Assembly (NCBI GenBank): GCA_028870115.1
Contig: JAGWQH010000064.1
Location: 1-58,919, forward strand
DNA: 58,919 nucleotides
Source of the DNA: Candidatus Methylomirabilota bacterium
Lineage (GTDB): Bacteria; Methylomirabilota; Methylomirabilia; Methylomirabilales; Methylomirabilaceae
Direction of reading: 5' to 3'
In this document: piece after piece, positions 2 through 16,478 of the stretch
Numbering within the stretch: position 1 is the first letter of the stretch
How the letters are laid out: every line of letters begins with the position of its first letter
The notes under the pieces: model-generated
The model's input: only the letters and a program-made list of their open reading frames with translations
Told to the model about the DNA's origin: nothing
Databases searched by the model: none
Translations under genes and position numbers: made by a program

Positions 2-907
2 CTGGTAAGCGGATTTATCCAGGACCAGATCGCGCTGATCCAGGATCGGCTCACGCTTACCCTCGGGTCCAAATTCGAGCACAACTCGTTCTCCGGTTTC
101 GAGTTCCAGCCGAACGCGCGATTGCTGTACTCCCCCAACGATTGGAATCGGGTATGGGCGGCGGTCTCGCGGGCGGTTCGGACGCCATCTCGAGCGGGAC
201 GCGATATGCGGATCGATACCGCCGCGTTTCCTGGCCCCGGCGGGCTTCCTACGCTCGTCCAAACGGTGGGTAACTCCGACTTTACCTCTGAGGAATCGCT
301 CGCCTTCGAGCTGGGTTACCGGGTACAGCCGGTCGAGTGGCTGACGCTCGATCTGGCCGGTTTCTACACGCACTATGACAACCTGGGAACGGCCGATCCT
401 GGCGCCCCTACGCTTGTGACGGACGCGGGCCTGCCTCATATCGTGCAGCCTCTGCTGTTCGCCAACCAGATGTCCGGGAACACGTATGGTATCGAGATCG
501 CCACTACCTGGCAGCCTCTGAGCTTCTGGCAACTCCATCTCAACTACTCCTACCTTAATATCGAACTCCACCCCAATGCGGGCCAGCACCCAATTGGCGT
601 CAACATAGGACATTCACCACGCCACCAAGTGCAGGCGCGTTCTCTTCTGGACCTCCCCTGGCATCTTCAGTTCGATGCGGCAGCCTTCTTTGTCGATCGA
701 CTGTCTGACCTGAACCCGGCAGTTCCGAGTTACCTGCGACTCGATCTCCGCCTGGGGTGGCGTCCAACCAAGGCGTTCGATCTGAGCCTGGTCGGCCAGA
801 ACCTTCTGGACAACCGCCATCCGGAGTTTCGTCGCGTTGATGTTGACCCTATCAGCGCTACAGAGATCCAGCGCAGCGCCGTAGTGAAGGCTACGTGGCG
901 ATTCTAA
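2..907 (+). CDS. TonB-dependent outer-membrane receptor, C-terminal part (5' end outside window)
   Basis: The reading frame is open from base 2 and runs to TAA at 905-907, so the gene begins before the window. The visible part alternates amphipathic beta strands typical of the porin barrel, with receptor-like phrases such as FIQDQIALIQDRLTLTLGSK, the RAVRTPSR segment, NTYGIEIATTWQP and DLSLVGQNLLDNRHPEF. It ends in aromatic phenylalanine (KATWRF), the usual signal for outer-membrane barrel assembly. The family imports siderophores, cobalamin or other substrates using TonB energy; the plug and TonB box are not visible here, so the substrate is unknown. The ATG at 122 is internal, not the true start. 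It is followed after 25 nt by a YfiR gene, a pairing common in diderm signalling operons. Confidence 0.9.
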   Translation: MVSGFIQDQIALIQDRLTLTLGSKFEHNSFSGFEFQPNARLLYSPNDWNRVWAAVSRAVRTPSRAGRDMRIDTAAFPGPGGLPTLVQTVGNSDFTSEESLAFELGYRVQPVEWLTLDLAGFYTHYDNLGTADPGAPTLVTDAGLPHIVQPLLFANQMSGNTYGIEIATTWQPLSFWQLHLNYSYLNIELHPNAGQHPIGVNIGHSPRHQVQARSLLDLPWHLQFDAAAFFVDRLSDLNPAVPSYLRLDLRLGWRPTKAFDLSLVGQNLLDNRHPEFRRVDVDPISATEIQRSAVVKATWRF

Positions 908-1482: not shown

Positions 1483-3084
1483 ATGCGCTTCCTTCGGGAT
1501 GCCCCGATCCGTAAGAAGCTGATGGGCATCTCCCTACTCACGACGGCTATGGCGTTGGTGCTGGCCGGGACGGCCTTTGTGATCTACGAATTGGCAATCT
1601 TCCGGTCTGGCATGACGCGTGAGCTTATGAGCACAGCAGATATCCTGGGCGCGAACAGTACGGCCGCGCTGACCTTTAACGATCCCGGGGGGGCAGAACT
1701 GACGCTACAGGGACTGCGAGCGATTCATCGAATCAACTCGGCGGCTATCTACACGAAGGAGGGAACCCTCTTCGCTACATACCATCGTGGGGATCGGCAG
1801 CCGGAGGTAATCCCCCTCAGACCCCGAGCAGATGGCGACACCCTGGAGGGAACGCGCTTGACCCTCTTTCGGCCGATCGTCCTTGACCATGAAAGGATTG
1901 GCACGATCTGGCTTCAGTCCGATCTACAGGAGGTAGCGAGGCATCTTATATTGTATGCCATCGTCACCATCGTCGTGTTGCTTGCCTCCTCCGCGGTGGC
2001 CTTCTTCGTGTCATCACGACTTCAAGAGGTGATCTCCGAACCGATCCAGCATCTGGTGCGGACGGTGAAGGCCGTCTCAGAGACACGAGACTATTCGGTC
2101 CGGGTGCAAGGGTCTGGTCGCGATGAGCTTGGGGTGCTCACCGATGGATTAAATGAGATGTTGATACAGATCCAAGAACGCGATATCGCGTTACAGACCG
2201 CGCACGATACACTTGAAGAGCGCGTGGAGAGGCGCACGACAGAGTTGCAGCGTGAGATCGCCGAGCGGAGACGAGCCGAGGAAGCGCTGGCCCAGACCCA
2301 GAGCGAGCTCCTCCATTCCGAGAAGATGGCATCCTTAGGATTTCTGGTGGCGGGAGTGGCTCACGAATTGAACAATCCCATCAGTGTCGTCCATTGCAAT
2401 ATGGATTTCATCAGGGAACATGTCCTGAGACTGAAAGGGATCATCGAGGCCTATGAGGCGCTCGATCTGCCCGATTGGCCCGCCCTTCAGCAGCTGGAAG
2501 AGCTGAGAAAAGGAGCAGAACTCGGCCTGAATGCATTGGATGAACTGGTTTCCAGTTGCAAGCGGGGAACGGAACGGATTACGAAGATTGTCATGGACCT
2601 CCGGACCTTTGCCAGGGCAGATGATGTCACTCCTGTGCCTGTCGATCTGCATGAGGGAATCGAGACAACCCTCAGCCTCCTGACAAAGGAGTACAAGGAT
2701 CGGATCACTATCCATCGAGAGTACGGGAGTCTGCCACAGGTGGAATGTCATCCCGGCCAGATCAACCAGGTGTTCATGAATCTGCTGCTCAACGCTGCCC
2801 AAGCGATCCCTGAGACAGGAGAGGTCTGGATCAGAACGGCTTCCCATGGAGATAAGGTCATCATCGTCATCAAGGATAACGGCTGCGGCATTCTTCAAGC
2901 GAATCTCGCCAAGATCTTTAACCCCTTCTTTACCACAAAGAAGGTGGGGGAAGGAATGGGCTTGGGCCTGAGCATCAGCTATGGGATCATCCAAAAGCAC
3001 GGCGGCAACCTGCGCGTGTCGAGCCATGATCGCCAGGGGACGGAGTTCACCGTCGAGCTCCCGGTGAAGTGGAGGGGGGTGTGA
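1483..3084 (+). CDS. Membrane sensor histidine kinase (CHASE-type sensor, HAMP, HisKA, HATPase)
   Basis: 533 residues. A transmembrane helix lies at about 13-35, a periplasmic sensor of about 110 residues resembling the YfiN-type CHASE8 domain follows, and a second helix is at about 155-177. Then come a HAMP linker, a long coiled coil (about 235-280, rich in E/R/Q) and the dimerisation/phosphoacceptor block VAHELNNPIS with His294. The catalytic domain shows an N box (NLLLNAAQAI), a G1 box (DNGCGI) and a G2 box (GMGLGLSI). It starts one base after yfiR-like and ends one base before the sigma-54 activator gene, so kinase and regulator are very probably partners. Expected role: autophosphorylation on His294 and transfer to Asp53 of the next protein. 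Confidence 0.92.
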   Translation: MRFLRDAPIRKKLMGISLLTTAMALVLAGTAFVIYELAIFRSGMTRELMSTADILGANSTAALTFNDPGGAELTLQGLRAIHRINSAAIYTKEGTLFATYHRGDRQPEVIPLRPRADGDTLEGTRLTLFRPIVLDHERIGTIWLQSDLQEVARHLILYAIVTIVVLLASSAVAFFVSSRLQEVISEPIQHLVRTVKAVSETRDYSVRVQGSGRDELGVLTDGLNEMLIQIQERDIALQTAHDTLEERVERRTTELQREIAERRRAEEALAQTQSELLHSEKMASLGFLVAGVAHELNNPISVVHCNMDFIREHVLRLKGIIEAYEALDLPDWPALQQLEELRKGAELGLNALDELVSSCKRGTERITKIVMDLRTFARADDVTPVPVDLHEGIETTLSLLTKEYKDRITIHREYGSLPQVECHPGQINQVFMNLLLNAAQAIPETGEVWIRTASHGDKVIIVIKDNGCGILQANLAKIFNPFFTTKKVGEGMGLGLSISYGIIQKHGGNLRVSSHDRQGTEFTVELPVKWRGV

Positions 3085-3085
3085 G

Positions 3086-4504
3086 ATGAAACGATACGGA
3101 ATCCTGATCGTAGATGACGAAAGGGATATCTTAACGACTCTCTCCCTTACGTTCGAAGAGGACTATGATGTCTTTCTGGCCCGCAGTGGCGCTGAGGGGC
3201 TGGCAATCCTGGAGCGGCAGGAAGTCGCCCTCATCATCGCGGATCAACGAATGCCGGAGATGACAGGGGTCGAATTCCTCGAGCGATCCATTGACAAGCG
3301 CCCCCAGGCTATCAGGATGATCCTCACAGGTTATACAGACACCACGTCCCTCATCCGAGCCATCAACGCCGGCAGAATCTATCGATATATCACCAAACCT
3401 TGGAGTCGGGATGAATTGAAGATCACCGTCAAGCGCGCCTTCGAAAGCTATGAGCTGACCATGGAGAATCAGCGACTCCTTAAGGAGCTTCAGACGGCCA
3501 ATGAACGGCTACAAGCGGAGAATCTCTATCTGAAGCAAGAGGTCGAAAGGGATCCTCTTTCCGGCACCATCATCGGCAAGAGCCCAGCCATGAAGCGGGT
3601 CTTCGATCTCATGGAGAAGGTCATCGATAGCTCTGTTACGATTTTTCTAACCGGAGAAACAGGAACAGGGAAGGGGGTAATCGCTCACCACCTCCACCAT
3701 CACGGCCCGAGACGAGGAAGACTGTTTATCGAGCAAAACTGCGGGGCGCTACCGGAGACCCTTCTGGAAAGCGAGCTGTTCGGCCATCGGCGCGGCGCCT
3801 TTACGGGGGCCGTACAGGACAAGAAAGGGCTCTTCGAGGTGGCACACGGGGGGACCCTCTTCCTGGACGAGGTCAGCGAGATGAGCCCTACGATGCAGGT
3901 CAAGCTGCTTCAGGTTCTTCAGGATGGCAGGATGCGGCGGATCGGAGAGACCGAATCCCGACAGGTCGATGTTCGAATCGTCGCGGCAACTAATCGAGAC
4001 CTGGAGTCAGAGGTCAAAAAGGGCACCTTTCGGGCGGATCTATACTACCGCCTGAGTGTTTTTCCCATCAGAACTCCTCCCTTACGAGAACGACGGGAGG
4101 ATATTCCCTTGCTGGTCGACTTCTTTTTGGAAAAACAGTGCAAGAAGCTGAAGAAGCCGGTCATAGGGCTGAGCCAAGAGGCCATGCAGCGCCTGTACGA
4201 ATACGACTTTCCGGGTAACGTCAGGGAATTACAGAATTTGATAGAGCGAGCGGTCCTTCTCAGTAACGGATCCAGGCTCGATCTGGATGAATGGCTGCCG
4301 AGTCCCTCTGATCTCTCTAAGTCCGCAGGGAGCCCTACTCTAACGCAGGTTGAAAAAGACTGTATTCTGGAGCGACTCCAGTCGCGGAAAGGTAATCTCG
4401 CGCTGGTCGCTAAGGATCTGGGGATCAGTCGCACCACACTGTGGCGTCGAATGAAGGCCTATCAGATCCCCTGGGGTTCCCGCCAGGTGGACTCCGGCGA
4501 ATAA
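3086..4504 (+). CDS. Sigma-54-dependent response regulator (NtrC family)
   Basis: 472 residues in three parts. The receiver domain (1-120) has the acidic pocket DD at 10-11, phosphoacceptor Asp53 in ADQRMPE and a conserved Lys in ITKPW. The AAA+ domain follows, with Walker A GETGTGKG (unusual for GESGTGKE), the sigma-54 contact loop GAFTGA at about 237-242, Walker B LFLDE and the arginine-finger region. A C-terminal Fis-type helix-turn-helix ends it ([19 protein letters not shown]). The GAFTGA loop shows that it remodels sigma-54 polymerase. It directly follows its likely kinase. The obvious candidate target is the -24/-12 promoter at 4741 with palindromes at 4597-4639. Confidence 0.93.
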
Positions 4505-4596
4505 GACCGATCCGACAATCCGGACTTCTCCTTTTACTGCCCTTCTCATAGACAGAGGCCTACCAGATTAACTGCTGACGCCTACGGGCCGTTGAT

Positions 4597-4639
4597 GTTT
4601 CAGAGTGAAACCGACTGAAACATCCCGTTTCACGTGAAA
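4597..4639 (+). promoter_or_regulatory. Candidate enhancer (activator-binding palindromes)
   Basis: Three overlapping inverted repeats are built from the half-site GTTTCA/TGAAAC: GTTTCAgagTGAAAC at 4597-4611, TGAAACatcccGTTTCA at 4616-4632 and TTTCACGTGAAA at 4628-4639. They lie about 100-145 bp upstream of the -24 element, which is where NtrC-type activators normally bind. The palindromes are seen directly; their use by either neighbouring activator is inferred. Confidence 0.6.
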
Positions 4640-4740
4640 GTTACCTCTTGCATATGATCCTCTCTGTCCGCTGGCCAAGTCACTCTATTAACTAGCCTGA
4701 AATCGAAGAGTTAGAGAAATCTATTGTGGGATTTCCGTTT

Positions 4741-4756
4741 TGGCATGCCTCTTGTT
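4741..4756 (+). promoter_or_regulatory. Sigma-54 (-24/-12) promoter
   Basis: TGGCATGCCTCTTGTT matches the consensus TGGCAYG-N4-TTGCW at every conserved position except the C of TTGC, with correct GG to TTG spacing. It lies 47 bp before the ATG at 4803, between two sigma-54 activator genes, and downstream of the palindromes at 4597-4639. Confidence 0.72.
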
Positions 4757-4802
4757 ATTAAGGACAGTTGTCGTGATAGAGATCTTAACGGAGGGGCATA
4801 AC

Positions 4803-5990
4803 ATGGAGCAGTATTTCAAGCAACCAGTGAGGTCAGACGAGCCCACGCTGAAGATCAGCGCGACGGATCATATCTGCTGCAGTGGCTCCCCAACAGGCTG
4901 GTCGGAGCGGCGCACCAGCCGATGGGCCGGTGCCGGGGTGCTGGCGATGACGCTCGGGGCGTTGGCGATCGGGCTGGTGGACTCCTCCCACACGCGGCCT
5001 GCCAGTGCCGTCCGGACTACCGCCATCCCAGCCACCCCGCCGCCGGCTGCGCACTCATCCGCGCCGACGGCAGAGGCGACGCGAAGGGGAACGATGCAGA
5101 TAGCCCGTAGTCAGTCCCCTGTCGCTCTTATCGAAAACCGAGGGCGGATGGCTTCTCGCGTTAGTTACGATGTTCAGGGGCGAGAAACCATTCTGTCCTT
5201 TACGCCGCAGGGTCTCACGCTCACCCTAACCGGATCCAGCTTCTCTCCAGGCATCGCCCAAAAGATCACTTGGAACCGATGGCCAATTGCCCGGGAGCAA
5301 GCAACCGTCCCCTCGCGCTGGGTCGGTGCGCTCAACTTTGTGGGTAGCAATTCGGCTGCGATCCCCCAATGGCAGGAGTCGACGCCAGCCACCATCCGCC
5401 CCTCAACCGACTCCCAACCAGCGGAGAAGACCAGACGTCCTGCCTCTGCTACTCTGCACTATCGGGACGTCTGGCCGGGTATCGATCTGCTCTACACGAT
5501 CACAGGCGACCGACTGCGATCCACCTTCGTTGTCAAGCCCGGAGCGGACCCGAATCAGATTCAGTTCGCTTACCAGAACGTCACCACTATCAGGCGCACC
5601 GAGGCCGGACAGCTAGAGGTGAGTACGCCGGTTGGAAGCTTCGCCGAAGAGATGCCCGTCGCCTATCAGGAGAGCCATTATCTGGCGCGGTTAGCGCGTC
5701 TGCGGGATAACGTCTACGGGGAGATGCCCGGTGTATACCAGGAGCGAGATGGACAACGGGTACCGGTGGCCGTAGCCTATACGCTGCAGCCATCAGGGAA
5801 CAGCTCAGTCTGGGGCATCCACGTGGAGGCCTACGACCCGCACATCCCGCTCATCATCGACCGGGTTATCCGCTATCCTGGCTCCATTGGAGGAAGCGAT
5901 ACCGATATGGACCCCGGCCTTGTCGCAGACCGTGACAGGGCTGCCTATGCAATCGCCTCATCGAGTTCTCCGATCCCATTCACCCCGTAA
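4803..5990 (+). CDS. Exported DUF7948 / SBBP-type protein, ending after the first repeat
   Basis: 395 residues from the ATG at 4803, chosen because a GAGGGG ribosome site precedes it and because the sigma-54 promoter fits it. An N-terminal cytoplasmic stretch is followed by a hydrophobic helix (about 38-60, LAMTLGALAIGLV) and a low-complexity Ala/Pro/Thr linker. Then comes the domain usually found ahead of SBBP beta-propeller repeats: LIENRGRMASRVSYDVQGR, YRDVWPGIDLLYTITGDRL and FVVKPGADPNQIQF. After that domain one degenerate SBBP-like unit is readable (IGGSDTDMDPGLVADRDRAA then SSSSPIPFTP), and the gene stops. Relatives usually carry many such repeats, so this copy looks truncated or is a minimal version. 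Function unknown; probably secreted or surface-anchored. Confidence 0.72.
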   Translation: MEQYFKQPVRSDEPTLKISATDHICCSGSPTGWSERRTSRWAGAGVLAMTLGALAIGLVDSSHTRPASAVRTTAIPATPPPAAHSSAPTAEATRRGTMQIARSQSPVALIENRGRMASRVSYDVQGRETILSFTPQGLTLTLTGSSFSPGIAQKITWNRWPIAREQATVPSRWVGALNFVGSNSAAIPQWQESTPATIRPSTDSQPAEKTRRPASATLHYRDVWPGIDLLYTITGDRLRSTFVVKPGADPNQIQFAYQNVTTIRRTEAGQLEVSTPVGSFAEEMPVAYQESHYLARLARLRDNVYGEMPGVYQERDGQRVPVAVAYTLQPSGNSSVWGIHVEAYDPHIPLIIDRVIRYPGSIGGSDTDMDPGLVADRDRAAYAIASSSSPIPFTP

Positions 5991-6124: not shown

Positions 6125-7492
6125 ATGATCCCCAGCCACAGCAAGATCCTGATCGTAGACAATGACCACGACATTCGGGAGGTAATGCGTGATCGCCTGA
6201 AGGCTATGGGGTGTGAGGTCGTGGAGGCGTCCGACGGTGTCCAGGCGCTGACGCGACTGAGAGAGGAGTCGCCGACGATCACTCTCCTCGATCTTATGAT
6301 ACCGGATAAGAGTGGTCTCGAGGTGCTGAAGGCGATCCGCGATGAGGGGCTCGAGACGACAGCCATCGTAATGACTGCGTATGGCACTATCGATAAGGCA
6401 GTGGAAGCTATGCGGGCCGGCGCCTACGACTTCTTGACCAAACCGCTCAGTCCGGGTCATTTGGAAGTGGTCATCGGTAAGGCGCTGGAACGCGAGGCGC
6501 TGAAGCGGGAAAACCTCCTGCTCTCGGGGGAGATCCGGGAACACGATCGGCCGATCATCGGTCACAGTTCGTCGATCCTGAACGCCATCGAGGCCGCTAA
6601 GCGAGCGGCGGCCAGCGGTTCGACGATCCTCCTGCTGGGCGAGAGCGGAACCGGAAAAGAGGTGTTCGCGAGAGCCATTCACCAATGGAGTCCAAGACGG
6701 GATAAGCCCTTTGTGGTCGTCAACTGCGTGGCGTTGTCGGAAGAGTTGCTCGAAAGTGAACTGTTCGGACATGAGCGGGGGGCCTTTACAGGCGCCCACC
6801 AGCGCAAGTACGGGAAGTTGGAGCTGGCCGATGGCGGGACGGCCTTCCTCGATGAGATCGGTGACCTGAAGCCGCGCCTTCAGGCGAAGCTGCTCCGCGT
6901 CCTGCAAGAGCAGGAGTTTGAGCGGGTTGGCGGGACGAAGCCGATACGGGTCGATCTTCGCTTTGTCGCCGCCACCAACCGACGCCCGGACAAAGCGATC
7001 CGGGAAGGATTATTCCGAGAGGACCTCTTCTTCCGACTCAATGTCGTCTCCGTCTCTCTTCCCCCACTCCGAGACCGCCTAGAGGACATTGTCCCTCTGA
7101 CCAATCACTTTCTGACCCGACACTGCGACAACCTGGGCAAGCGAATCAAGGAGATCACTCCGGATGCATGGGAGTTGCTGCAACACTACCATTGGCCGGG
7201 CAATGTGAGAGAACTGGCGAACTTTATCGAGCGAGCCGTTGTTCTGAGCACTCGTGATCGAATCACCTCGGAAGACCTCCCACTGACTGTCCTCACCAGC
7301 GCACTGGAGTCGCCCGCATCAGATGTACCTCGTGACTTCCATGAGGCTGTGGTGGCGTACAAGCGACAGATCATCCGGGAGGCCTTGCATCGTTCGGGAG
7401 GCAATCAATCGAAGGCCGCGAGCGCCCTCGGCCTGCAGCGAATCTATCTTGCCCGTCTGATTAAGGAATTACAGGTGCGCGAGAAGAGCTGA
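6125..7492 (+). CDS. Second sigma-54-dependent response regulator
   Basis: 455 residues. Receiver with phosphoacceptor Asp56 ([12 protein letters not shown]) and Lys in LTKPLSPG; the pocket reads DND rather than DD-D, which is tolerated. The AAA+ domain has Walker A GESGTGKE, the sigma-54 loop GAFTGA at about 219-224 and Walker [10 protein letters not shown]. The C-terminal Fis-like HTH is [20 protein letters not shown]. No kinase gene adjoins it. A modest possible promoter (TTGACT at 6032, TATCCT 18 bp downstream) lies in the 134-nt gap upstream. Together with the regulator at 3086 it brackets the only obvious sigma-54 promoter in the region. Confidence 0.92.
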
Positions 7493-7586: not shown

Positions 7587-8180
7587 ATGGCGCTCACCGA
7601 CCGGCAGCGGCAGATCCTGAATTTCATCGCCACCTATAAGGCCAGGCATGGCGCCCCCCCGACGCAGCGCGAGATCGCCAAGCACGTGAAGATCTACATC
7701 CGGGGCGTCCAGTATCATCTCGAGCGGCTGGAGCGGGCCGGCCATCTCACACGCACGCCCAAGCGGGCTCGGGCCATCGACCTGCGCCGGGAGCAACGCG
7801 CCACCCTTACACCCCTGCTCGGCCGGGTGACGGCCGGCCGGCCGATTCTGTCCGACGAGCACGTTGAGGCCACCTATCCGCTTCCCCGGGAATGGACCGG
7901 AAGTGGGAAGACCTTCCTCCTGAAGGTTCAGGGCGACAGCATGCGCGATGCCCGCATCTTTGACGGTGACCTCGTACTCGTAACGGCGCAGTCGGAGGCC
8001 CACCCCGGCGAGATCGTGGTAGCGATGATCGAGGACGAGGTCACGGTCAAGCGCTTCCAATTGGACGGCACGACGGTCGTTCTCAAGCCGGAGAATGAGC
8101 AGTTCTCGCCGATTAGGATCGAGAACGGGGAGCGCGTCAGGATTCTGGGTAAGGTCATCGGCGTCTTTCGGAAGCTGTAA
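7587..8180 (+). CDS. lexA: LexA SOS repressor
   Basis: 197 residues. The N-terminal winged helix (TDRQRQILNFIATYKARHG, then PTQREIAKHVKI) contacts DNA. The self-cleavage bond is Ala83-Gly84 in VTAGRPI. The S24-type protease dyad is Ser118 (QGDSM) and Lys155 (VTVKRF). RecA filaments trigger self-cleavage and derepress SOS genes. The recognition region (AKHVKIYIRGVQYHLERLE) differs from E. coli LexA, consistent with a non-enterobacterial operator. The GGGAG ribosome site ahead of ATG fixes the start. It heads a region that also carries imuA, imuB and dnaE2, its expected targets. Confidence 0.95.
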   Translation: MALTDRQRQILNFIATYKARHGAPPTQREIAKHVKIYIRGVQYHLERLERAGHLTRTPKRARAIDLRREQRATLTPLLGRVTAGRPILSDEHVEATYPLPREWTGSGKTFLLKVQGDSMRDARIFDGDLVLVTAQSEAHPGEIVVAMIEDEVTVKRFQLDGTTVVLKPENEQFSPIRIENGERVRILGKVIGVFRKL

Positions 8181-8189
8181 GCCAAGTAC

Positions 8190-8480
8190 ATGAAATTTGA
8201 TGAGTTTTATCCTTTGTACCTTAGCGAGCACTCCAATCATATCTGTCGACTGCTGCACTTCATCGGCACCACGATCGGTGTCTCGCTACTTCTTGCTGCC
8301 GTGGTCACGCAAACGTGGTGGCTGGTTCCGGTGGCATTTGTGCAAGCCTACACCTGTGCATGGATCGGTCATTTCTGCTTCGAACATAACAAGCCGGCCA
8401 CGTTCAAATATCCCAGGCTCAGCTTCCTCGGTGACTGGCGTATGTGGTGGGAGATACTCACGAACAAAATTCGGATGTGA
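8190..8480 (+). CDS. DUF962 / Mpo1-like small membrane protein
   Basis: 96 residues beginning FDEFYPLYLSEHSNHICRLL, the typical DUF962 opening, with two hydrophobic helices (about 24-40 and 43-60) and the His-containing GHFCFEHNKPATF motif. Relatives of yeast Mpo1 are Fe(II) dioxygenases that act on 2-hydroxy fatty acids; the conserved histidines (HSNH, HFIG, GHFCFEHN) are present. It starts nine bases after the lexA stop and may be read with lexA, but nothing links it to DNA repair. The ribosome site is weak. Confidence 0.82.
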   Translation: MKFDEFYPLYLSEHSNHICRLLHFIGTTIGVSLLLAAVVTQTWWLVPVAFVQAYTCAWIGHFCFEHNKPATFKYPRLSFLGDWRMWWEILTNKIRM

Positions 8481-8543
8481 TCCTGCGCTTGACAGCTCTT
8501 CGAAAAGGCAAGAGAATCAGCCTCGTCTAGGTATGGTACAACT

Positions 8544-9934
8544 ATGAAACAAAATCTCCAAGCACCCATGCGCTCTGTAAACGGCACCTCGAACAAGCTT
8601 GCGGCTGAGGATCGGCTCGCACATGACTGGTATCGGTTCGTCCTTTCGTTTCCACCCCACCTGGTGCGCGACTATCTACACCGGTTCGGCATGGACCGGG
8701 ATTCCATGGTTCTCGATCCATTCTGCGGGACAGGTACGACAATCGTAGAATGCAAGAAACTCGATATTCCGAGCGTCGGAGTGGAGGCGAATCCATTTGC
8801 GTATTTTGCGAGTATCGTGAAGACAGATTGGTCACCTGACCCCGACGAACTTCTGAAGCACGCCAGGGAAGTGGCTGAACTGGCAAGTAAAAAGCTCGCT
8901 TCGGAAGGATTCGACGATCAGTCTCCCCTACCGCTGTTCAATCGGACTCGTGGAGCCGGCCCAGGCTGCACGGAAGCCCTGCGGAAACTTCCCCCGGAAA
9001 AGGAAAAACTTCTCCTAGCAAATTCGATCAGCCCACTTCCCCTGCATAAGACACTCGTTCTGCTTGAGTGCCTCGATCAAATCCGCGACGACCGGTACCG
9101 AAACCATGAACTGTTGGCGCTAGGCAAAACACTTGTCAACGTGATCAGCAATCTCCATTTTGGCCCGGAAGTCGGTATTGGTCCTGCTAAGCCAGATAGC
9201 CCAGTTGTCGCGCCGTGGCTGGCTACTGTCGAGACGGTCGCCGCTGACCTTCGATGTTTGCAAAGGACGGGTGGTGCATCCGCGACAGTCTATAATGGGG
9301 ACGCTCGTCGGATTTCACAGCTCCTATCCGGTTTCACAATCGATGCCGTCATTACTTCGCCACCGTATCCTAATGAAAAGGACTACACCAGGACAACTCG
9401 TCTCGAGTCGGTATTGCTAGGTTTCATCAACAGCAAGGATGATCTCCAGGCCTTGAAGCAAGGCTTGGTCCGTTCCAATACACGTGGAGTGTACAAGGGG
9501 GACGATGACGACAAGTGGATCGCTGATCAGGATGAAATCCAGCGCATTGCGAAGGCAATCGAACAGCGCAGAATCGAGCTCGGGAAAACATCGGGTTTCG
9601 AGCGTCAGTATCATAAAGTTGCGAAACTGTATTTTGGTGGCATGGCACGTCATCTTGCGGAATTACGCACCGTATACTGCGCACAGGTGCGCGATTGGCA
9701 TACGTCGTGGGGGATCAAGCCTCTTACCTGCGAGTCATGATTCGGACGGGCCAGTTATTGGCGGATATTGCCGAATCGCTGGGTTATCAAGTCGAGAGCA
9801 TAGAATTGTTTCGCACCCGTTTGGCAACCGCAACAAAGGATCAACTGCGTGAAGAGGTGGTGATACTGCGCTGGCCCGGTCCCAGAAGTCATCATCAGCA
9901 TACAGGCGTAAAGCTTATCGAAGCCAAAAGGTGA
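8544..9934 (+). pseudogene. DNA methyltransferase (DPFCGTGTT / TSPPY type), frameshifted near its 3' end
   Basis: The first frame (8544-9740) has the AdoMet motif DPFCGTGTTIVECKK and the catalytic motif ITSPPYPNEKDYTRT, so this is an amino-methyltransferase (N6-A or N4-C) acting on DNA. After HLAELRTV the frame leaves the family pattern. The proper continuation (LRTGARLAYVVGDQASYLRV ... EEVVILRW) is found in another frame and ends at 9934. The shift is at about 9675, where two extra bases (TA) would explain it. Either a true inactivating mutation or a read error is possible. A truncated ORF follows at once, as expected for a decaying restriction-modification pair. Confidence 0.78.
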
Positions 9935-9938
9935 TCGA

Positions 9939-10052
9939 ATGGCCGAAGCCAACCGATATTCGCAGATTATCGAGAAGCTCTTCCATTCCTGCTTCAAGCC
10001 GGGTGCGATGGAGGTACCGTCGATTTGGATGCTTCAGCTTGATTTGCCGTAG
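9939..10052 (+). pseudogene. Truncated ORF, possible 5' fragment of a cognate restriction endonuclease
   Basis: The ATG lies four bases after the methyltransferase stop. The 37-residue product starts MAEANRYSQIIEKLFHSCFK and then PGAMEV, which recalls the first residues of endonuclease-like partners of TSPPY methyltransferases. It then stops at TAG (10050-10052), and nothing of the rest of such a protein is visible before the DUF5131 gene. I infer a large internal deletion. Assignment is from memory of the family pattern only; the alternative is an unrelated short ORF. Confidence 0.4.
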
Positions 10053-10062
10053 GGAGTTCACT

Positions 10063-10824
10063 GTGTCCCAAGGCACGAGCATTGAATGGACCGACGCGAC
10101 CTGGAATCCTGTGACAGGTTGCACGAAAATTAGCCCAGGATGCCTACGTTGTTATGCGGAGCGGCTGGCCCATCGCCTGCAGGCCATGGGCAACTACAAC
10201 TACCGAAACGACTTCGAGGTGACGCTTCAGGAACAGATGCTCCGGCTTCCACTCAGTTGGAAGCGGCCTCGTCGGGTCTTCGTTAATTCGATGAGCGATC
10301 TCTTTCACGAAGAGGTGTCCGTCGAGTACGTCACGCGAGTGTTTGAGGTGATGAGACAGGCGCACTGGCATCAATTCCAGATACTCACCAAGCGATCCGA
10401 GCGACTCCGACAATTGGCGTCGTCGCTGCCGTGGGCGGACAACATCTGGATGGGTGTCAGTGCTGAGGCTAGACAGTATCTGTACAGGATCGATCACCTT
10501 CGATACACCTCGGCAGCCATGAAGTTCATCTCCTTCGAGCCGCTGTTGGAATCGCTTGGCGCTGTCGAACTGCGCGGCATCGATTGGGTCATTGTCGGCG
10601 GCGAATCAGGGCCGGGGGCGCGTCCGATGGAGCGATCATGGGTCATCGAAATCTTGCAGGCATGTCGTCAGGCCAGCGTACCCTTTTTCTTCAAGCAATG
10701 GGGCGGTACGAACAAGAAGCGCGCGGGTCGTATCCTGGACGGCAAAACCTGGGATGAGGTGCCGGAGAGCGCGACACGGAAGGCTCTATCTTCAAGCCGA
10801 CCTCTGCGCACTTGCAGTCACTGA
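10063..10824 (+). CDS. DUF5131 family (phage Gp37/Gp68-like) protein
   Basis: 253 residues from GTG at 10063, chosen because TAGGGAG precedes it and because the family begins exactly at SIEWTDATWNPVTGC. Family signatures follow: CTKISPGCLRCYAERLA (three cysteines), FVNSMSDLFHE, FQILTKRSERL, NIWMGVS, FISFEPLLE, IDWVIVGGESGPGARPM and PFFFKQWGG. The cysteine pattern suggests a radical-SAM-like metal centre. These genes occur in phages and near DNA-modification or defence genes; the biochemical role is unknown. Here it sits between a decayed methyltransferase and imuA. The final residues (SSSRPLRTCSH) are unlike family members and may reflect a local disruption. Confidence 0.88.
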   Translation: MSQGTSIEWTDATWNPVTGCTKISPGCLRCYAERLAHRLQAMGNYNYRNDFEVTLQEQMLRLPLSWKRPRRVFVNSMSDLFHEEVSVEYVTRVFEVMRQAHWHQFQILTKRSERLRQLASSLPWADNIWMGVSAEARQYLYRIDHLRYTSAAMKFISFEPLLESLGAVELRGIDWVIVGGESGPGARPMERSWVIEILQACRQASVPFFFKQWGGTNKKRAGRILDGKTWDEVPESATRKALSSSRPLRTCSH

Positions 10825-10827
10825 TGG

Positions 10828-11481
10828 ATGGGTGTTTTTTTGGCTCACAGTATTAGTCATATGTATAGTAAGAAATTGTATGGTAGCCAGTTCCTCTTGC
10901 TGCGGCGAGAGAGAAGCACACAAGAGACATGGTGGAGTCTTGAGCAGATCGCCGGGCGGCTGGTGGAGATCTCGGGTATGGGGGCAACGGCCCCGCTCAC
11001 GCTGGCCTTCGGGCTGGTGTTGGAGGCGCAGCGGCATGGGGAGCCGGTAGTCTGGATCACACGTGACAACAGCCTCTTCTATCCTCCCGACGTAGCTGAG
11101 GGAGGAATCGATTTCGACGCCATGGTGATTGTCCGGGTCCCTGACAGCAGGGCCGCGGCTCGCGCCGCGGACCAACTCGTACGGTCGGGCGCCTTCGGCC
11201 TGATCGTACTCGACTTGGGTGCCAATATCAATGTGCCTACTCCGATCCAGACCCGTCTGGCAGGGCTTGCGCACAAGCATCAGACCGCGCTCCTCTGCCT
11301 TACGGCGAAGGGGGATGAGGCCCCGTCGCTGGGTCCACTCGTCTCTCTCAGGGTTGCCGCTCGGCGAGAGCGGCTTGCCGATGGCCGGTTTTCGTGTGGG
11401 CTTACCGTCCTCAAGGATAAGCGTCGAGGTCCGACCTGGCGGTATGCGGAGGTCTGTCATGGACCGGATGGCCTGCGTTAG
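10828..11481 (+). CDS. imuA: ImuA-type RecA-like mutasome protein
   Basis: 217 residues with a RecA-fold pattern: GRLVEISGMGATAPLTLAFG (P-loop position, but lacking the Lys-Thr/Ser of a true Walker A), PVVWITRD, and FGLIVLDLGA in the Walker B position. Arg-rich C-terminal segments (LRVAARRERL) follow. Position just before imuB and dnaE2 supports ImuA, the accessory factor of the LexA-controlled mutagenesis cassette. The degenerate P-loop suggests no ATP hydrolysis. The start is uncertain: ATG 10828 is the longest, but the candidate promoter/operator (10854-10873) overlaps the first codons. A start at 10861, or at a later TTG, is therefore possible. The 3' end overlaps imuB by 23 bp. Confidence 0.78.
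   Translation: MGVFLAHSISHMYSKKLYGSQFLLLRRERSTQETWWSLEQIAGRLVEISGMGATAPLTLAFGLVLEAQRHGEPVVWITRDNSLFYPPDVAEGGIDFDAMVIVRVPDSRAAARAADQLVRSGAFGLIVLDLGANINVPTPIQTRLAGLAHKHQTALLCLTAKGDEAPSLGPLVSLRVAARRERLADGRFSCGLTVLKDKRRGPTWRYAEVCHGPDGLR
10854..10873 (+). promoter_or_regulatory. Candidate LexA operator/promoter before imuA
   Basis: The site starts TAGTCATATGTATAGTA and agrees with the lexA site (7526-7545) at 15 of 20 positions. TATAGT (10864-10869) could be the -10, with TTGGCT (10840-10845) as -35 at 18 bp. If real, the message starts inside the annotated imuA 5' end, which would move the start codon downstream. Confidence 0.42.
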
Positions 11482-13039
11482 CCTCCCTGCCCTCCCCTTG
11501 CAGCTTTTGCTCCGGCGTCATCCCGAGTGGGTGGCCTGCCCGGTGGCCGTGGCTGCTGAAGATAGACCACAAGGGCTCATCTGCTACGTGAATACAGCAG
11601 CGCGGAAGGCCGGCGTGCGTCCAGGTCTCCGCTACGCCGCCGGCTGTTCGCTTGCGGCCGACCTGCGGGCCGGCGTGATCCCGTCAGTCGAAATCGACGA
11701 GGCGGTCGAGGCAGTTGCGGAACAGCTCAGACGCTTTACGCCGGAGGTCGAGCCGTCCACTGAGGAGCCCGGCGTCTTTTGGCTCAACGGAATAGGGCTT
11801 ACTCGCCTCTATCGGTCGTATGAGGCGTGGGCGCGGCTGATCGCGGCCGACCTGAACGACGTGGGCTTTCGCGCGACGGTAGTCGTAGGCTTCACACGTT
11901 TTGGTACCTATGCCATGGCCAAGGCGCAGGATGGGACGGTGGTATTTGATAATCCCGCCGATGAGCGCGCCGCAGCGCGGCAGGTTCGGCTCGAACACCT
12001 GAAGCTTGATCCGGACCTCCGGGATACGCTCGTGAAGCTGAGTGTAACGACCGTAGGCGCGTTCCTCGCCCTTCCGGCCGGCGGGCTGCTCACACGCTTC
12101 GGACCAGCAGCCTATCGCCTTCACCGGATGGCGTCCGGCGAGTTATGGACACCTCTGCAGCCACGCAAGTTACAAGAGCCGATCCGGCAACGGCTCGTCC
12201 TCGACGATCCCGAGACCGACGCGACGCGCCTGCTCTTCCACCTAAAAGGGCTGCTCCATCCGCTACTCAAAGCGTTAGTCGTCCGAGGCGAGACGCTTGT
12301 CTGGCTCACGCTTCGCCTCCGGCTGGACCTGTCTGCCAGCCAGGCAGGCGGGAACGGACCTGCTTGTGCGTCGCACGCAGACAGGTGGCGCGAGGAGCAC
12401 GTCTGTCCAGCGGCCCCGACGCTGGATCCGGTACAGATCCTCGATTTGGTTCGGCTGCGGCTTGATGCGATAGAACTGCCGGCTGGGGTGATTGAGATGG
12501 AGTTGATGGCAGCGGGTATCCCAGCGCCAGCCGAGCAGTATCGACTGACCTGCCTGTGTCGGCACGGTAGACAGGTCGTAGAGCGGCCCCGGCGCGATCT
12601 GGAGGCAGCCAATCGGGCGCTGGCCCGCATCCGGGCTACCTTTGGAGATGAGGCGGTAGGACGAGTACGACTCGCGGACGGTCACCTGCCTGAAGCGAGT
12701 TTTAGGTGGGAGCCATTAGAACAGGGGTTGGGGATTGAGGGTTGGAGATTAGAGGTAAAACCAGGAACCAGGAAGCAGGCGCTAGGGACCGCAAAGCGGA
12801 GTCTGGTGCGTCGGATCTTTGCCAAGCCGATCCCGCTGCGTCTACCGCCCGGCTCACACCTGCACGGACCGTATATCATCAGCGGCGGATGGTGGGGACG
12901 GGATCTGTCTGCGTGCGAGCACGCACAGGCAGAGACGCATCGCGACTACTACTTCGCCGAGACTCGGCGCGGCGAGCTGCTCTGGGTCTATTACGACCTG
13001 AATCGCCGTTATTGGTTTCTTCATGGAACAGTTGAGTAA
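11459..13039 (+). CDS. imuB: ImuB, Y-family polymerase-like mutasome subunit
   Basis: 526 residues from ATG 11459, preceded by GGAGG and overlapping imuA (the longest open frame begins earlier at 11219 but lacks support). It begins MACVSLPALPLQLLLRRHPE and keeps the Y-family fold (GLRYAAGCSLAADL, VFWLNGIGLTRLYRSY, VVVGFTRFGTYAMAKA), with helix-hairpin-helix and little-finger regions after it. ImuB proteins lack the catalytic acidic residues and serve as the hub between ImuA, the beta clamp and DnaE2. Odd: four palindromic elements are embedded in frame (12328-12348, 12359-12385, 12549-12575, 12904-12933). They encode low-homology peptides such as DLSAS, PACASHADR and DLSACEHAQAE in the C-terminal half. 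Confidence 0.9.
   Translation: MDRMACVSLPALPLQLLLRRHPEWVACPVAVAAEDRPQGLICYVNTAARKAGVRPGLRYAAGCSLAADLRAGVIPSVEIDEAVEAVAEQLRRFTPEVEPSTEEPGVFWLNGIGLTRLYRSYEAWARLIAADLNDVGFRATVVVGFTRFGTYAMAKAQDGTVVFDNPADERAAARQVRLEHLKLDPDLRDTLVKLSVTTVGAFLALPAGGLLTRFGPAAYRLHRMASGELWTPLQPRKLQEPIRQRLVLDDPETDATRLLFHLKGLLHPLLKALVVRGETLVWLTLRLRLDLSASQAGGNGPACASHADRWREEHVCPAAPTLDPVQILDLVRLRLDAIELPAGVIEMELMAAGIPAPAEQYRLTCLCRHGRQVVERPRRDLEAANRALARIRATFGDEAVGRVRLADGHLPEASFRWEPLEQGLGIEGWRLEVKPGTRKQALGTAKRSLVRRIFAKPIPLRLPPGSHLHGPYIISGGWWGRDLSACEHAQAETHRDYYFAETRRGELLWVYYDLNRRYWFLHGTVE
12328..12385 (+). repeat. Two palindromic elements inside imuB (21 nt and 27 nt)
   Basis: Copy one (12328-12348) has arms CCTGTCTG and CAGGCAGG around CCAGC. 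Copy two (12359-12385) runs from CCTGCTTGTGCG to CGCAGACAGG. Both lengths are multiples of three, no stop is created, and they encode residues of about 290-309 of ImuB. Confidence 0.75.
12549..12575 (+). repeat. Palindromic element inside imuB (27 nt)
   Basis: Runs from CCTGCCTGTG to GTAGACAGG with the same arm pattern as the other copies but more diverged at its centre. It is read in frame as LTCLCRHGRQV at about residues 364-372. Confidence 0.6.
12904..12933 (+). repeat. Palindromic element inside imuB (30 nt)
   Basis: TCTGTCTGCGTGCG pairs with GCACGCACAGGCAGA around a short centre. It is read in frame as DLSACEHAQAE near residue 482, close to the C-terminus. Confidence 0.75.
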
Positions 13040-13083
13040 AACGTCATAACTAGCTGTAATACACAGATACATTTACATAGCAT

Positions 13084-13187
13084 GTCGTTGCGAGCGACCA
13101 CCGGGAGCGTGGCAATCTACTCGTTCTGCTCTACAGATCATCAAGAACGGTGAGATTGCTTCGGTCGCTACGCTCCCTCGCAACGAC
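13084..13187. repeat. Dispersed inverted-repeat element, family A (GTCGTTGCGAG ends)
   Basis: Ends GTCGTTGCGAG and CTCGCAACGAC are exact inverted repeats about 104 nt apart, with GTGGCAATCT and AGATTGCTTC as inner inverted segments. It fills most of the gap between imuB and dnaE2. Other copies are at 17967-18002 (half), 20305-20415 and 32480-32569. There is no coding potential, so it is probably a MITE/REP-like unit. Confidence 0.8.
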
Positions 13188-13211
13188 GCGGGTGAGGGGG
13201 TTTTCAGAACT

Positions 13212-16478
<3,267 letters not shown>

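Follow-up and report, generated by a model that had tools for sequence, protein, structure and literature searches.

Duplicated putative enhancer-promoter cassettes in a proposed self-contained sigma-54 two-component locus of Candidatus Methylomirabilis

NtrC, AtoC and ZraR are NtrC-family two-component systems with sigma-54 promoters. The locus described here lies in a 58,919-nucleotide stretch of DNA (the window, by which we mean the whole stretch analysed) from Candidatus Methylomirabilis, a genus linked to denitrifying methane oxidation. It resembles the NtrC family in its regulator of receiver, GAFTGA-bearing AAA domain and Fis-type helix-turn-helix (HTH), its upstream palindromes and its -24/-12-like box; it differs in that several near-identical cassettes are confined to the regulator's own locus and in that the -12 element reads GT in 15 of 15 aligned copies. 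We read it as a sigma-54 two-component locus that is self-contained and whose enhancer-promoter cassettes have been duplicated, and consider it probable that the site in the window is one copy of such a cassette, belonging to the private regulon of the pair formed by the kinase and the regulator RR1. The genes concerned are as follows.

2..907, + strand: C-terminal part of a TonB-dependent receptor (PF00593, 127 bits), running off the contig start
933..1481, + strand: YfiR-like periplasmic protein (DUF4154; PF13689, 157.7 bits; NF053591, 157.3 bits, cut-off 125)
1483..3084, + strand: chimeric sensor kinase with CHASE8-HAMP input (Pfam; NF053592, 230.2 bits, cut-off 194)
2230..2299, + strand: junction zone of the chimera at about residues 250-272, immediately ahead of the H box (alignment and identity in 10-residue windows)
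3086..4504, + strand: RR1, with receiver, sigma-54 AAA+ domain with GAFTGA and Fis-type HTH (Pfam); proposed reader of the palindromes
4803..5990, + strand: DUF7948 protein of 395 aa, the target gene here (PF25778, 132.8 bits, gathering score 27)
6125..7492, + strand: RR2, a second GAFTGA regulator and genus core gene (Pfam), probably outside the circuit

The element lies between the two regulators and comprises the following features.

4597..4640, + strand: enhancer-like element, with four half-sites conserved and the fifth poorly so (15-copy alignment)
4597-4602: half-site 1, GTTTCA
4606-4611: half-site 2, TGAAAC
4616-4621: half-site 3, TGAAAC
4627-4632: half-site 4, GTTTCA
4635-4640: half-site 5, TGAAAG
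4701..4723, + strand: spacer block agtTAgagaAa, a third and weaker conserved block (15-copy alignment)
4740..4757, + strand: -24/-12-like promoter TTGGCATGCCTCTTGTTA (pattern matches; 1.72 bits per column over 15 copies)

Half-sites and box were found where the initial annotation had placed them, and the two flanking response regulators, as it had claimed, both carry GAFTGA (motif in the sequence) and share the domain type receiver-AAA-HTH_8 (Pfam). Two of its descriptions need adjustment. 'Three palindromes' is fair for the window copy, but the fifth half-site (TGAAA) is kept in only 4 of the 15 copies. The box TGGCATGCCTCTTGTT (4741-4756) does come within one mismatch of the consensus TGGCAYRNNNNTTGCW, yet 'textbook' is slightly too strong, because the -12 C is replaced by T and the spacing is GG-N10-GT, not GG-N10-GC. 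In the sigma-54 consensus the G of the -12 element is usually followed by C, which is not taken here as indispensable. By the usual -12 spacing, transcription is predicted to start at about 4767. Neither feature stands out clearly from chance in the window by itself (one promoter match against 1.42 expected; three palindrome matches at up to two mismatches, including one exact match, where 1.17 were expected), so that recurrence elsewhere is needed to decide. Sigma-70 matches in the region numbered two against a mean of 0.8 in shuffles; a sigma-70 promoter was set aside as an alternative, with one weak match at 4629-4658 that overlaps the enhancer.

A blastn search with window positions 4560-4802 against 41 genomes, 15 in the genus and 26 outside it, matched the element in nine, all of them within the genus (9/15), and gave no match in the 26 others. 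The promoter pattern TTGGCAYRNNNCTTGTTA had 16 matches in eight of the 15 genus genomes, where its reversed control had none. In the same 15 genomes a three-half-site pattern gave 14 matches and its control pattern none; 12 of the matches, with no or one mismatch, are all copies of the element, and the other two, with two mismatches each, lie outside elements and are probably due to chance. The search that had been proposed at the outset, for the same palindrome before other -24/-12 boxes, thus came out positive by blastn, by pattern and in the alignment of 15 copies, and we accept the element as real because the block recurs in the genus. Homology between these copies extends over as much as about 230 bp, and the contig ends of G001, G007 and G022 fall within copies, as might be expected of a non-regulatory dispersed repeat, a mobile remnant whose likeness to a promoter is incidental. 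This we hold to be highly improbable, however, given that all 16 promoter matches are confined to one kind of locus, that the geometry is fixed and that conservation is centred on the half-sites and the promoter. A phage or virus origin was likewise rejected: the element had no match in phage records, nor the exact half-site pattern in viral contigs.

The 15 aligned copies are 14 of the 16 promoter matches plus an altered copy from G003. The other two matches start no more than 43 bases from a contig start, so that their enhancer is not visible; also left out were an enhancer copy in G008 (75695-78767 region, L062) with no recognisable promoter behind it and a fragment on contig C60 of G001 that begins inside the -12 box. 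Enhancer and promoter are 142-144 bp apart in every aligned copy. Conservation reaches 1.48 bits per column in the half-sites and 1.72 in the promoter, against 0.90 in the spacer and about 0.76 in the flanks; its overall level is biased upward because similarity to the window element is how most copies were recovered, the contrast within the block being less biased. The conserved half-sites start at 0, 9, 19 and 30, that is, roughly one helical turn apart.

The promoter consensus over the 15 copies is TTGGCAyr..CTTGTTA, and the -12 is never GC. GT was part of the search pattern for one aligned copy but not for any copy found by blastn, and the three other TGGCAYR-N4-TTGY matches in the window's genome all read TTGC; the GT is a genuine deviation from the sigma-54 consensus. 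The TGGCA block and the GG-N10-G spacing are present, as is rpoN (one gene in the window's genome, with a single PF04552 match of 208.3 bits), and the C after the -12 G is missing. Since T stands there in all 15 copies, we say that the box may work like a sigma-54 promoter and do not assign it to the class. An IHF site in the spacer is unsupported, matches with one mismatch occurring in three of the 15 copies and with two to four in the others, no better than shuffled sequence.

A rival reader of the palindromes is the small LuxR/GerE-type protein encoded in the locus; RR1 or some other enhancer-binding protein would then serve the -24/-12 box through different sites, for example the spacer block. 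Such a LuxR-type protein is encoded under the element in G000 (the window's genome, on contig C82), G005, G008 and G021, its GerE domain having been scored for G005, and the conserved spacer block also favours this explanation. Against it, a position of about -170 to -127, with 6-bp arms and gaps of 3-5 bp, fits a sigma-54 response regulator: a study of one sulfate reducer reports, for its response regulators, inverted repeats that are mostly of 4-6 bp and 3-8 bp apart (PMC3333781). We therefore regard a LuxR-type reader as unlikely and favour RR1.

RR1 has the make-up of an NtrC-type response regulator, or bEBP, with PF00072, PF00158 and PF02954 above cut-off and GAFTGA present. Orthologs at 86-91% occur in five other genus genomes, making six of 15 with the window's own. 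Among the nine good genomes (completeness of 90% or more, contamination of 5% or less), RR1 and element are both present in the same six and both absent from the same three (Fisher p 0.012, without correction for relatedness). In each of the five genomes that show the downstream flank of RR1 (G000, G005, G008, G021 and G022), a copy stands close behind RR1; another precedes the LuxR/FecR/CHASE2-kinase/RR1 genes in G005, G008 and G021, and in G001 a copy precedes the same gene block as far as the contig reaches. The RR1 recognition helix is identical in the four genomes compared. From this association, RR1 is probably the reader of the element.

The element occurs without an RR1 match in G001 (99% complete, 8% contamination), G003 (83%) and G012 (80%). 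In G001 the element contig C62 ends inside the FecR gene and C60 inside the promoter, and the G012 element contig is only 3 kb long; contig gaps could be hiding RR1 in these two genomes. In G003 the stretch from recA to RR2 is continuous and has no RR1; in keeping with RR1 as the reader, the element retained there has an altered -24 box and a broken DUF7948 gene. Further afield, a Competibacteraceae contig with a 60% RR1 homolog showed no such palindrome within the 21 kb examined, and a TTTCA-gap-TGAAA palindrome was absent from eight of nine distant RR1-homolog loci scanned (out of 80); in the ninth, L079, it lies at 5381, inside an open frame and far from the RR1 homolog (432-1883).

RR2 adjoins the DUF7948 gene in the window and bears GAFTGA, which would make it a natural candidate for activating the promoter, and the initial annotation had named both regulators as flanking the promoter. 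A role for RR2 is not supported. Its close orthologs (79-88% identity, the window's own gene apart) are found in all nine good genomes, three of which lack the element, and it is therefore probably unrelated to it; in G004 RR2 adjoins recA, with neither element nor locus between. For G006 and G009, where recA is not within the flank seen, no such claim of an empty site is made. We see very little chance that RR2 activates this promoter. Its receiver acidic pocket reads VDND in the window and VDDD in the G003 ortholog.

Upstream of RR1, the TonB-receptor and YfiR input to the kinase that had been read from the sequence was borne out by Pfam, and both the YfiR-like TOL_0243 family model and that of its associated kinase input (NF053591 and NF053592) score above their cut-offs. 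The kinase itself is, as the alignments indicate, a natural chimera, a YfiR-linked CHASE8 sensor joined to a core that elsewhere carries CHASE2. Residues 1-258 are 58% identical to their nearest relative in the same genome, a YfiR-linked CHASE8 kinase (G000:C15), and residues 1 to about 250 show 36-70% identity per 30 residues to the YfiR-linked CHASE8 kinase of G005; residues 271-533 show 46-96% per 30 residues to the CHASE2 kinases of other RR1 loci. The core types differ as well, the YfiR-linked relatives having SHELRTPL as against AHELNNPI. The junction falls in a presumed coiled segment before the H box. An assembly artefact would leave the sensor half near 100% identical to its nearest relative in the same genome; the figure is only about 58%, and this explanation was rejected. 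A CHASE2-like kinase likewise precedes the RR1 homolog of Competibacteraceae (sequence reading and alignment), so CHASE2 is probably the older partner.

The gene behind the promoter in the window is indeed of DUF7948 type, scoring above the gathering threshold of PF25778, with full-length homologs in two other genomes (57-59%); a hydrophobic stretch near residues 41-60 suggests that the protein is probably exported, with a single membrane anchor. Comparison of the loci indicates that the gene behind the promoter differs among species. In G021 the order is recA, element, exported 204-aa protein, LuxR-type protein, FecR-TPR-barrel protein, 122-aa protein, CHASE2 kinase, RR1, element, DUF7948 protein and YhdP/AsmA-like protein, where FecR, TPR and CHASE2 rest on Pfam scores of the homologs in G005 and G008. 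G005 has the most promoters per locus, five within 16.7 kb: the first precedes an unclassified 375-aa protein and the remnant of a TonB receptor, the second the LuxR-FecR-CHASE2 kinase-RR1 genes, the third a DoxX-like protein (Pfam below cut-off), the fourth a calpain-like C2 peptidase, and the fifth a second kinase, behind which lies a broken DUF7948 gene. This locus also contains an IS200-type transposase (L043 4394-4828). In G008 a PIN-type toxin-like gene with a small upstream partner, named by eye (L044 8774-9247), stands between RR1 and the conserved element.

In G007 and G022 the element precedes an exported protein with a 24-residue repeat, several units of which lie around NDPIAMAYRRTLE (L068 136-1062 and L069); the NDPIAMAYRRTLE repeat corresponds to a 72-bp DNA repeat of about five copies (TRF), and the protein has a weak, sub-threshold HbpS-like match and a shorter relative on G000 C82. 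C82 carries the second element copy of the window's genome, adjoining recA and followed by the repeat-bearing exported protein, a LuxR-type protein and, at the contig end, the start of a TonB receptor. The first 100 bases of the window, within the TonB receptor gene, are identical to the first 100 of G000:C15 (L214), which points to an assembly broken at a repeat, a duplicated receptor. Probably C82 continues into the window; C15, which begins with the same 100 bases, offers a competing join. On the other side of the locus, window positions 7587-16475 hold genes for LexA-like, ImuA-like (RecA family), ImuB-like (IMS) and DnaE2-like (DNA polymerase III alpha) proteins, a probable SOS mutagenesis cassette.

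The altered G003 copy looks like the product of a deletion between two cassettes, followed by decay. All 44 bases of its element agree with the C82 copy, which its far upstream flank also resembles more closely (77-88% vs 55-61%), whereas its leader (88% vs 71%) and its spacer are nearer to the window copy; over the last 60 bases ahead of the element the comparison favours neither. The -24 reads TTGGTA, with T for C, and the DUF7948 gene is cut short. Deletion and later decay would explain the mixed flanks, the altered -24 and the broken gene together; an ancestral single-copy state is the alternative.

We infer RR1 binding, the use of sigma-54, the direction of regulation and the signal from this arrangement, as follows. 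A periplasmic or outer-membrane signal would enter here through the TonB receptor, the YfiR-like protein and the CHASE8 sensor, and in relatives through the FecR-TPR-barrel protein and the CHASE2 sensor. The kinase would then phosphorylate RR1, which may occupy the four half-sites along a single face of the helix and loop over about 100 bp, its GAFTGA-bearing AAA+ ring opening sigma-54 polymerase at TTGGCA-N5-CTTGTTA. A cassette before the kinase-RR1 operon would provide autoactivation, and further cassettes would act on one to several envelope-related genes alongside, in the window the DUF7948 gene. The cassette probably switches on several envelope-related genes, and the locus may form the circuit from surface signal to surface protein initially suggested. 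More tentatively, and with rather less than even confidence, the locus may be a plug-and-play hub, in which RR1 and cassette stay constant while sensors and targets are exchanged, duplicated cassettes serving as crossover points for cargo. The proposed scheme offers a testable operator sequence, regulator and regulon for Candidatus Methylomirabilis. Among close relatives, the input and the output of this two-component system have both been replaced while its regulator and operator stayed the same; with both sensor and target genes swapped between species, it is a natural example of bacterial signalling rewiring, and the kinase chimera, joined before the H box, is a natural counterpart of engineered sensor swaps.

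A search of the open-licence literature, subscription papers lying outside its coverage, found no description of the locus or operator, and written forms of the palindrome returned no known operator use, only a yeast paper. The locus recalls PrsK/PrsR of PEP-CTERM systems, where a sigma-54 regulator stands over envelope or matrix proteins. Membership was rejected by score for PrsR/PrsK (RR1 366.3 against a TIGR02915 cut-off of 502.6; kinase 90 against a TIGR02916 cut-off of 300) and for AtoC (NF008469, RR1 369 and RR2 449.8 against 714). The BiofilmReg operon comprises a response regulator, a LysM-FecR protein, a CHASE2 kinase and DUF4136 (PMC5192318), and shares with the Methylomirabilis relatives a FecR protein, a CHASE2 kinase and a regulator; its regulators are of CreB/BasR/QseB rather than GAFTGA type (PMC5192318), and the window operon has neither CHASE2 nor FecR. 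With YfiBNR, the window locus shares a periplasmic YfiR family protein and a membrane input of CHASE8-HAMP type (YfiN, via an NF007423 match), but the output here is a histidine kinase with RR1 instead of a diguanylate cyclase.
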